Origin: a virus
DNA: 31,479 bases
Reading direction: 5' to 3' (one strand)
Virus record (IMG/VR): IMGVR_UViG_3300038678_000280
Span: 1 to 31,479 of that record
This document shows, in pieces, positions 17,842-31,479 of this stretch (position 1 is the stretch's first letter; every line of letters begins with the position of its first letter). A model generated the notes under the pieces. The model worked only from the letters and a program-made list of their open reading frames with translations. It did no database searches and was not told the DNA's origin. The position numbers and the translations under genes were made by a program.

Positions 17842-18140
17842 TTATTTATATAATTCTGGTTTTAAAAATTTAAATGGTCTTTTTACTTGTTTATGATATG
17901 GTTCACAAGTTAAACAAAACCTATAACAACCCCATTTGTTTTCTTTATTAAAGCCATAGCAATACCTTTCCGGTTTATTCCCACATAACACACAGATATT
18001 CGGGTCTTCTTTTTTCTCTTTTTTTTTATGAATATATCTTTTTTCTTTATTTCTTTTTTATCAAGACAAAAGCATTGGTCTTTGAAATTAAGACATTCAG
18101 CACAATATATTCTTAGTTTTTTCTTTTCTTTAACTTTCAT
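17842..18140 (-). CDS. Double zinc-ribbon protein apparently made by -1 frameshifting
   Basis: The zero-frame product has 76 residues and begins MKVKEKKKLRIYCAEC ... CFC. After a run of nine A (18019-18027) its C-terminus becomes unconvincing. The -1 frame from there encodes CVLCG, CYGF and CYRFCLTCEPYHKQV and ends at 17842, giving a 99-residue protein with a second complete zinc cluster. The -1 frame has no start codon before its first Cys. In the zero frame the codons AAA AAA AAG and, 3 nt later, AGA AAA AAG each contain the slippery heptamer A AAA AAG, as in dnaX. Alternatives are transcriptional slippage on A9, a mutation or an assembly error. The start lacks an SD. It follows the leader/attenuator region and opens the late operon. 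Confidence 0.6.
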
Positions 18141-18157: not shown

Positions 18158-18201
18158 TAAAAATATAGGTAAGCTACTCACAAAGATTGTTTTCACTTAC
18201 C
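18158..18201 (-). terminator. Terminator/attenuator-like hairpin before the late operon
   Basis: On the minus strand GGTAAG (18196-18201) pairs with CTTACC (18168-18173), with an inner ACAA/TTGT stem. It is followed at once by TATATTTTT, a U-tract in RNA. A preceding hairpin, ACATGTAT with ATATATGT (about 18213-18242), overlaps the end of the tiny leader ORF. The arrangement of leader peptide, hairpin and terminator is that of a transcription attenuator. No amino-acid bias is visible in a 5-codon leader. Confidence 0.45.
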
Positions 18202-18233
18202 CAGTTTACTACTACATATATGGTTTATGTTTT

Positions 18234-18251
18234 CTATACATGTCTTTTCAT
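18234..18251 (-). CDS. Five-codon leader ORF with a perfect SD
   Basis: ATG AAA AGA CAT GTA TAG (MKRHV) follows AAAGGAGGTGATGCTA, one of the strongest SD sequences in the genome. An ORF this short with such an SD is more likely regulatory (leader peptide or ribosome loading site) than a source of product. It is in frame with the gene at 18140, separated by three stop codons. Confidence 0.4.
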   Translation of the reverse strand: MKRHV

Positions 18252-18390
18252 TAGCATCACCTCCTTTCTTTTTTTTGCATTTAATTTAATTATCATCAGC
18301 AAAAACAAAATTCATTATAAACCCAATTATTTCACAGCTTAATAGCTTGCTTTCATTGGCGGTTTTGTTTCCTGATCTATTTGTTTATTT

Positions 18391-18534
18391 ATTCCGTTGA
18401 AAAGGTATTGACTAATCTACCTATTGTTAATTTATTGGCCTTATCCTTAGCTTTACCAAATGAGTCGATCAACTATCTCCGCAACTAAGGTCATATACGG
18501 AGTTCCACGTCGGTATTACTTTATTCAACGGAAT
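18391..18534 (-). ncRNA. Candidate structured RNA closed by an 11-bp stem, with pseudoknot
   Basis: ATTCCGTTGAA (18391-18401) and TTCAACGGAAT (18524-18534) are exact complements 122 nt apart. Inside, CTCCG (18477-18481) pairs with CGGAG (18498-18502), extended by AACT/AGTT. The loop sequence CTAAGG (18485-18490) is complementary to CCTTAG (18445-18450), a potential pseudoknot. The 424-bp gap 18141-18564 holds no credible gene. The RNA lies between the replication and late modules. I recognise no riboswitch or ribozyme family. Confidence 0.55.
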
Positions 18535-18564
18535 ATTAAGCATTTCATTCTTTTTTTTATTAAT

Positions 18565-25992: not shown

Positions 25993-26068
25993 TGTCTTCT
26001 TTTAGTAAATTGTTTAAAAAATCTAATTCTTTTAATGCTTTTATATTTTCCTTTTTATCTTCATTCAC
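25961..26068 (-). CDS. Tiny GTG-initiated protein (35 residues)
   Basis: GTG at 26068 shares four bases with the previous stop (GTGA), and GGAG lies about 9 nt upstream. The sequence (MNEDKKENIKALKELDFLNN and onward) is helical and acidic. The coupling supports translation, the length limits certainty. Confidence 0.45.
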   Translation of the reverse strand: MNEDKKENIKALKELDFLNNLLKEDNENKDQKQDI

Positions 26069-26283
26069 CTATCACCTCTCCTTTCGTCAATTCTTTTCAC
26101 TTCTGTTTCTAAGTTTTTTAATGCTTGTTCCCAAGAATCACTGTTACTTCGTTTATATCCTACTACGAAGACTTCAAACTCTTCTATCCCTTTGCCATTC
26201 CTTTCTGATTCTGTTTGGGTTATAGAATGAAACTTGTCACCTGCTAACTCTTTTAACTTTTTCTTTGCTTTATTGAATGTCAT
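26065..26283 (-). CDS. Tandem paralogue 3 of an MTF-x-A small protein family
   Basis: The product has 72 residues: MTFNKAKKKLKELAGDKFHS, a central FEVFVVGY strand and SWEQALKNLETEV. It shares order and key residues (MTF, A, LA, HSI, W-x-A-x-x-x-L) with the two genes upstream. The fold looks alpha-beta-alpha. Function unknown. Confidence 0.75.
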   Translation of the reverse strand: MTFNKAKKKLKELAGDKFHSITQTESERNGKGIEEFEVFVVGYKRSNSDSWEQALKNLETEVKRIDERRGDR

Positions 26284-26488
26284 GGTTTTTATTTCCTTTC
26301 ATTTGGGTTTCTAAACTTTTAAATGCTCTTTCCCATGTGGGTTCTTCGTGTGCGTCATTTCCTATAATGTAAACTAAACATTTTTTTATGTTTATGTTTT
26401 TATCAGTCCTTGTTATGTTTAGTTGTATTGAATGAAGTTTTCCTTTTGCTAAAAGTCTTATCTTTTTCCTTGCTTGTTTGAATGTCAT
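26270..26488 (-). CDS. Tandem paralogue 2 of an MTF-x-A small protein family
   Basis: The start at 26488 (MTFKQARKKIRLLAKGKLHS) is preferred to one 24 bases upstream because AGGG lies at 7 nt and it aligns with the paralogues. It has 72 residues and includes CLVYIIG and PTWERAFKSLETQM. Confidence 0.75.
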   Translation of the reverse strand: MTFKQARKKIRLLAKGKLHSIQLNITRTDKNINIKKCLVYIIGNDAHEEPTWERAFKSLETQMKGNKNHDIQ

Positions 26489-26498
26489 TGGTTTTCCC

Positions 26499-26726
26499 TT
26501 ATGGCGCTTCATGATTGTCTATGAACCGTATTGGACATATATTTTCTTTCATTTTTGCTAATGCTTGTTTCCATGTTGGTTTACTTATTATTTCTTCTTT
26601 TTCAATATAAATTGAACATTCTGCTTCTTGTGTTCCGTCTATGTGTGTAACTAAACGATATGTTATAGTGTGATAGTTACCTCTCGCTAATTTCTTTAAT
26701 TCTTTTTCCGCCTCATGAAATGTCAT
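26499..26726 (-). CDS. Tandem paralogue 1 of an MTF-x-A small protein family
   Basis: The product has 75 residues: MTFHEAEKELKKLARGNYHT, then CSIYIEKEE and PTWKQALAKMKEN. It is the first of three tandem related genes with near-equal length and spacing, so a local duplication followed by divergence is inferred. Confidence 0.75.
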   Translation of the reverse strand: MTFHEAEKELKKLARGNYHTITYRLVTHIDGTQEAECSIYIEKEEIISKPTWKQALAKMKENICPIRFIDNHEAP

Positions 26727-31107: not shown

Positions 31108-31452
31108 TCAAATGAAAGTTCTAAGAATGACCTTTTTGCCTTGTGATCTTGCGAAGTTAAATGTGTAAAGTGTTCCTCTTGATTCACCATTCCAGATTGC
31201 AACACACACATCACATTTCAGGACCATGACTCTGTCCCTTGCCAGGAACGATTTGTAATCAAGACCTCTAAACATTGAAACCTTGTCCCAAATTCCAAGC
31301 TGGTGAGCCAAACCCAAAGCTTTCTGGTCAATTCCTCTTGCATCTCCCACAATCAAGCTATGACCCTCTTCCTTGATCCAGTTCATGACTTCAACTAGTT
31401 TTGCACTCATCTTGTCTGAACATTTTCTTGAACCTGTGATTAAAACTCTCAT
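31108..31452 (-). CDS. SLOG-family nucleotide-binding protein (DprA/YspA-like fold)
   Basis: The product has 114 residues. Rossmann-like motif 1 MRVLITGSR (1-9) and motif GDARGID (36-42) are the signature of the SLOG superfamily (DprA, YspA, DUF2493). Members bind nucleotides or nucleotide-derived signals and occur in phages and anti-phage systems. SD AGGAG at 8 nt. On the circle it directly follows the zinc-ribbon gene 181-393. Its GC content is higher than that of the genes further downstream. Confidence 0.8.
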   Translation of the reverse strand: MRVLITGSRKCSDKMSAKLVEVMNWIKEEGHSLIVGDARGIDQKALGLAHQLGIWDKVSMFRGLDYKSFLARDRVMVLKCDVCVAIWNGESRGTLYTFNFARSQGKKVILRTFI

Positions 31453-31479
31453 AATTAAAACTCCTAAAAGAAAAAAAAA
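31353..31479. repeat. Right copy of exact 127-bp terminal repeat
   Basis: This is the second copy of bases 1-127. It contains the start codon, the SD sequence (AGGAG, 8 nt before the ATG) and the first 33 codons of the SLOG-family gene. When the ends are joined, that gene lies directly downstream of the zinc-ribbon gene at 181-393. Confidence 0.95.

Follow-up and report, generated by a model that had tools for sequence, protein, structure and literature searches.

A phage gene split between two reading frames at a run of nine A: slippage in the run as the favoured explanation

At one locus of a phage genome, a reading frame that begins with an ATG seems to lose its sense at a run of nine A (A9), and a Cys-rich frame shifted by -1 seems to take over at the same run. 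The locus raises the question of whether the two frames encode one protein and, if they do, whether the change of frame is an evolved switch or an ordinary slip in the length of the run. An earlier note, made from the sequence alone, had read the locus as a double zinc-ribbon protein encoded across a dnaX-type -1 frameshift at A AAA AAG, with slippage at A9 as the alternative.

The window, that is, the whole stretch of DNA analysed here, is a 31,479-base virus record. Its first and last 127 nt are identical (1-127 and 31353-31479). This direct terminal repeat probably marks a circular contig, so that the actual genome length would be about 31,352 bp, and we take the repeat length to reflect a short-read assembly with k=127. 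A terminase gene is present, and nearly all likely genes lie on the minus strand. The positions of the split gene, its parts and its neighbours are shown in Table 1. The 148-aa protein encoded downstream has seven phage hits, one of which is annotated as MazG-like, and its gene is followed by an RNase H-like gene and the terminase gene.

Table 1. Features of the split gene and its two neighbours.
Feature	Position	Strand	Basis
RusA-like resolvase gene, upstream neighbour	18960-18565	-	family match
N-terminal half, frame 0, 37 codons up to A9	18030..18140	-	ORF from ATG 18140 and coding score
Zero-frame ORF, 76 aa, tail past A9 lacking coding signal	17910..18140	-	ORF and score of -0.47 after A9
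A9 run, point of coding-frame change	18019..18027	-	sequence and codon-bias switch
In-phase A AAA AAG heptamer 1, end of A9 run	18018..18024	-	motif position and phase
In-phase A AAA AAG heptamer 2	18009..18015	-	motif position and phase
C-terminal half, -1 frame, 61 codons and stop	17842..18027	-	open frame, coding score, chance controls
148-aa protein gene, downstream neighbour	17831-17385	-	PHROGs of unknown function

Between the RusA-like gene and the leader of the split gene lie about 150 nt (18385-18550, minus strand) that are closed by a long inverted repeat, ATTCCGTTGAA/TTCAACGGAAT. Its folding is better than that of its shuffles (z -2.59), 2 of 200 of which did as well. CCTTAG and CTAAGG may pair in a pseudoknot, and the segment is possibly a structured RNA. 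The leader itself (18168-18269, minus strand) contains AGAAAGGAGGTGAT at 18269-18256, the sole copy in the window and presumably complementary to the typical 3' end of 16S rRNA. It is followed by a five-codon ORF, MKRHV (18251-18234), and by a hairpin at 18201-18168 (-9.2 kcal/mol) and then TATATTTTT; the hairpin and the SD region compete for the same CTTACC. Judged from these elements, the leader looks like an attenuator. A known RNA element was ruled out, since Rfam gave no match in the window at gathering scores and only subthreshold matches in the leader. Elsewhere on the minus strand, three consecutive small ORFs (26065-26726) encode related proteins that start with MTFxxAxKxL and are 26-32% identical to the first; by their sequences, they form a tandem gene family without known function.

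The split gene runs from 18140 to 17842 on the minus strand, and its two reading frames meet at the A9 run. Frame 0 reaches its stop about 100 nt past the slippery site. The -1 frame is open over 71 codons, from 18057 to its stop, and neither half contains a further stop. Translation across the two frames confirmed the joined product of 99 residues. The Cys residues of the N half follow the pattern C-x2-C-x6-C-x-C (CAEC and CFC), and the C half has six Cys, with two CxxC pairs, in the order CVLC, two single Cys and a C-x3-C-x2-C cluster that includes CLTC. No SD was found upstream of the gene's own ATG (18140). The -1 frame had been described as encoding a full second zinc cluster with no start codon of its own. 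The Cys residues for such a cluster are indeed there, and no ATG, GTG or TTG occurs upstream of the first Cys of this half; a GTG is nevertheless present at 17991, inside CVLC. The rarer start candidates further upstream are only ATT at 18033 and ATC at 17997. The C half ends 10 nt before the ATG of the next gene.

In order to see which frames look coding, we scored them with a codon-bias model trained on 21 of the window's ORFs. The scores were +0.05 for the N half in frame 0 and +0.08 for the C half in the -1 frame, and the score of frame 0 after A9 was -0.47. The remaining frames scored from -0.75 to -1.05, the other two frames of the N half giving -0.75 and -0.83. When the training genes were scored in windows of 61 codons, in-frame scores had their 1st percentile at +0.12 and out-of-frame scores their 99th percentile at -0.44. 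At A9 the codon bias thus passes from frame 0 to the -1 frame, in agreement with the statement of the earlier note that the zero frame loses sense there. Both halves look coding, more weakly than the typical genes of this window since both fall below the in-frame 1st percentile, and the frame-0 tail does not look coding.

The chance of an open and Cys-rich -1 frame was examined in two controls, which were chosen post hoc, when the sequence had already been seen. The comparison set consisted of 54 other ORFs, hand-picked from a mechanical ORF list and including small unproved ORFs; 21 of them had served to train the codon model. Among 11,216 out-of-frame 61-codon windows of these ORFs, 58 were open and 28 had at least six Cys, and none had both properties. 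When the C half was shuffled with its dinucleotides preserved, 35 of 20,000 shuffles were open and 13 had two CxxC, again with none combining the two.

The codon bias, the missing start codon and the end of the C half so close to the next ATG support the view, already put forward in the earlier note, that both halves are one protein written in two frames, and this is the simplest reading. We therefore think that the split gene is best read as encoding a Lys-rich protein of 99 residues with two Cys clusters. The paired Cys in both halves (CVLC and CLTC; CAEC and CFC) are spaced like zinc-ribbon ligands, and the protein probably binds zinc; it may serve, for example, as a small nucleic-acid-binding or adaptor protein. 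The label of double zinc ribbon is based only on Cys spacing. Pfam and PHROG profiles gave no match with either half at E up to 1. The matches below cutoff were the NCBIfam Sui1 model with the frame-0 ORF (E 0.017), Pfam DUF3079 (E 1) and PDB entries (E 0.64 and worse). A single-sequence AF2 model of the C half had a pLDDT of 54.5, which is too poor for use. In six IMG/VR loci, a zinc-ribbon protein is 36-38% identical to the C half over 39-40 residues, and the alignment includes both CxxC pairs (E between 0.001 and 0.011 in this small set); these loci were selected by a Cys-motif pattern, so the identity arises partly by construction. Their protein extends more than 100 residues further, and the N half is unmatched there.

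The earlier note had proposed aligning homologues, and the searches were carried out; none was found. Protein patterns from the C half gave no relatives in viral contigs (55 stretches) or genome contigs (43 stretches). Single-protein searches with the terminase (6 stretches) and with the neighbouring MazG-like gene (11 stretches) gave none either. By tblastn, the C half and the joined protein had no match in 50,697 phage records, and the C half had none in 72,556 plasmid records. A Cys-motif DNA pattern found 28 loci in viral contigs, none of them a full relative; further patterns of this kind found 4 loci there, none of them relatives by translation, and another found 0 loci. A distant terminase alignment yielded 47 loci (29 in viral contigs and 18 in genome contigs), in which neither half had a match at E 0.05, and an alignment of the RNase H kept 80 of 420 relatives. 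Across the 47 terminase loci, the 4 pattern loci and the 80 RNase H loci, no convincing match to either half turned up, and only two of these loci have a second gene in common with the window. Thus, the pattern- and alignment-based searches gave no homologue in IMG/VR or GTDB genomes, and by its sequence the split gene appears to be an orphan. Since pattern scans detect close relatives only and the collections may omit near-identical records, the missing homologues are weak evidence of absence.

We then considered the heptamers. The two in-phase copies of A AAA AAG (18024-18018 and 18015-18009) are real and in the right phase, as had been claimed, but they lie 2 nt apart and not 3. Two more copies of AAAAAAG, at 18059 and 18044, are out of phase. 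In the 54 other ORFs, the in-phase motif occurs 5 times in 26,550 nt, a count close to that of synonymous shuffles (7.3, sd 2.5). The motif is thus not rare in the window's ORFs, nor is it under any particular avoidance there. None of these 5 sites ends its ORF early. With the motif set of PMC4066793, no SD-like stimulator was found 6-17 nt upstream of either heptamer. Downstream, 24 windows folded like their shuffles (z -1.04 to +1.27), as did a 141-nt fold (z 0.01), where nested structures only were considered.

At the dnaX site, the shift leads to a stop near the site and to a shorter protein, whereas a shift in the split gene would lengthen the product. The E. coli dnaX site has the same heptamer in the same phase, as described in PMC5009743 and PMC4066793, and according to the latter few heptamers shift as readily in E. 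coli as A AAA AAG does in the presence of stimulators. In contrast to E. coli dnaX, the split gene has neither an SD-like stimulator nor downstream structure. In annotated phage frameshift genes, the frame-0 stop is on average 26 nt away, as reported in PMC10885494, which also reports that 2476 of the 3679 SEA-PHAGES genomes have a joined gene, namely 2397 tail assembly chaperones and 79 hypothetical genes. We did not give the split gene the dnaX-type label of the earlier note, since stimulator and structure are lacking, the frame-0 stop is distant and there is no homologue in which to see conservation.

To evaluate A runs across the genome, synonymous codons were shuffled within each of the 54 ORFs, which lie on the minus strand. 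Sense runs of at least 6 A numbered 69 (91.3 expected), those of at least 7 numbered 21 (41.5), those of at least 8 numbered 10 (19.0), and those of at least 9 numbered 2 (10.9); in each length class, 0 of 1000 shuffles was as low as observed. T runs were not depleted (at least 7, 8 against 6.2 expected; at least 8, 5 against 2.1). The depletion of A stayed when two poly-Lys genes were left out (at least 9, 2 against 8.0; 0 of 400 shuffles). AAA-AAA pairs were below expectation (38 against 58.1), and mixed AAA/AAG pairs were commoner. T runs are slippage-prone too, and replication slippage should affect both kinds of run alike; the depletion of A and not of T therefore suggests that A runs carry a cost at expression. 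This depletion agrees with published avoidance and is not specific to the split gene. Consecutive AAA codons are known to be under-represented, as reported in PMC4363877, and according to PMC1088944 nine-base runs of A or T are avoided in many bacteria. Slippage at the A9 of the split gene is plausible, but ribosomes slid only slightly on A9 or A10 in vitro (PMC4363877), and such runs are not avoided by some AT-rich bacteria (PMC1088944).

The best precedent for leaky expression is tssM1 of Citrobacter rodentium, as described in PMC4256274. In both cases a gene is interrupted and its C-terminal domain lies out of frame past a poly-A run, no SD or structural stimulator is present, and the halves would be joined if the transcript gained an A. 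The run of tssM1 is A11, against A9 here, and its stop lies 28 nt after the run, against about 100 nt. In addition, slippage has been demonstrated for tssM1, in which the run gains A's in the mRNA (20-25%) and leaks full-length product, whereas for the split gene it is only proposed.

With these results, the explanations of the split can be compared. That the -1 frame is a chance opening in AT-rich sequence and encodes no protein seems the most improbable of all: the gene is an orphan without a convincing profile or database match and both halves score below nearly all in-frame gene windows, but neither control produced a comparable frame and both scores are well above the out-of-frame 99th percentile. 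It is quite unlikely that the halves are two separate genes, with GTG 17991 or the rare ATT or ATC as the start of the second. The frame does hold these three candidates, but a start at the GTG would lose the first Cys of CVLC, and inspection of the 24 nt upstream by eye revealed no SD. In addition, the stop of the N half lies 80 nt downstream of this GTG, which makes termination-reinitiation coupling unlikely. An assembly or sequencing error would fit a homopolymer, where such errors occur, and a record of one contig only. However, the identical 127-nt ends point to short-read assembly, none of the three other ORF-internal runs of at least 9 A or T interrupts its ORF, and the family matches of the RNase H, RusA and AAA genes cover most of each gene. 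A miscounted run is therefore unlikely.

If the frame change is instead an evolved switch, the A9 run and the two heptamers would set the share of copies that carry the second zinc cluster in a phage gene other than a tail chaperone, and perhaps the upstream leader, with its strong SD, five-codon ORF and hairpin, takes part too. Such a switch is on the whole rather doubtful. Programmed -1 ribosomal frameshifting in the dnaX style at one or both heptamers would draw on the two in-phase copies and on the shift-prone nature of the motif in E. coli given stimulators (PMC4066793). We regard it as very unlikely, because no SD-like motif or downstream structure accompanies the heptamers, the zero-frame stop is distant, the annotated frameshift genes of phages in the survey of PMC10885494 are, with few exceptions, tail chaperones, and the in-phase sites in the other ORFs cut none of them short. 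The alternative of slippage at A9, which the earlier note had mentioned, fits better than this, but from one sequence it can be proved no more than a plain indel can. In its programmed form, selection would keep the A9 and RNA polymerase would add an A in a fraction of transcripts, which would set a ratio of 76-aa to 99-aa product, as in tssM1 or IS elements. In favour of this are the position of the A9 exactly at the frame change, the avoidance of A runs otherwise in this genome, the appearance of such avoidance at length nine in many bacterial genomes (PMC1088944), and the example of tssM1, in which SD and structure are not required (PMC4256274). It nevertheless seems fairly unlikely: there is no relative in which the run is conserved, A9 is not avoided by some AT-rich bacteria (PMC1088944), of which the host may be one, and T runs show no avoidance in this genome.

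Slips of this kind usually occur in A runs, and contraction of a run is a common type of mutation. We lean, with somewhat better than even confidence, to the explanation that the gene is out of register through slippage in the A run, with leaky full-length expression possible. Most likely the length of the run slipped, probably by contraction, as an ordinary homopolymer indel in the genome or the population and not as an evolved switch. The ribosomes would then mostly yield the 76-aa frame-0 product with a meaningless tail, and some 99-residue protein may arise from transcripts in which RNA polymerase has put an extra A into the run, or from ribosomes that slip back on A AAA AAG. The switch of codon bias at the run, a -1 half that is open and Cys-rich beyond chance with no usual start before its first Cys, the lack of SD-like stimulator and downstream structure, and the failure to find a homologue, so that there is no sign of a conserved switch, are all consistent with this. 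On the other hand, neither half has acquired a further stop, so any indel would be recent, and since runs of at least 9 A are depleted and T runs are not, an A run at the frame change may be no accident. Singleton frameshifted genes were held to be mostly indels or errors in PMC3711429, but orphan genes were exempted; as the split gene is an orphan, this rule applies to it only loosely.

If the split is an indel, it calls for caution, because not every A AAA AAG in a Lys-rich, AT-rich genome would be a switch. If the site is programmed, a non-structural phage gene would join a list dominated by tail chaperones. If the full-length protein is made, gene callers lose a phage protein at a homopolymer, and other AT-rich phages may be affected in the same way.
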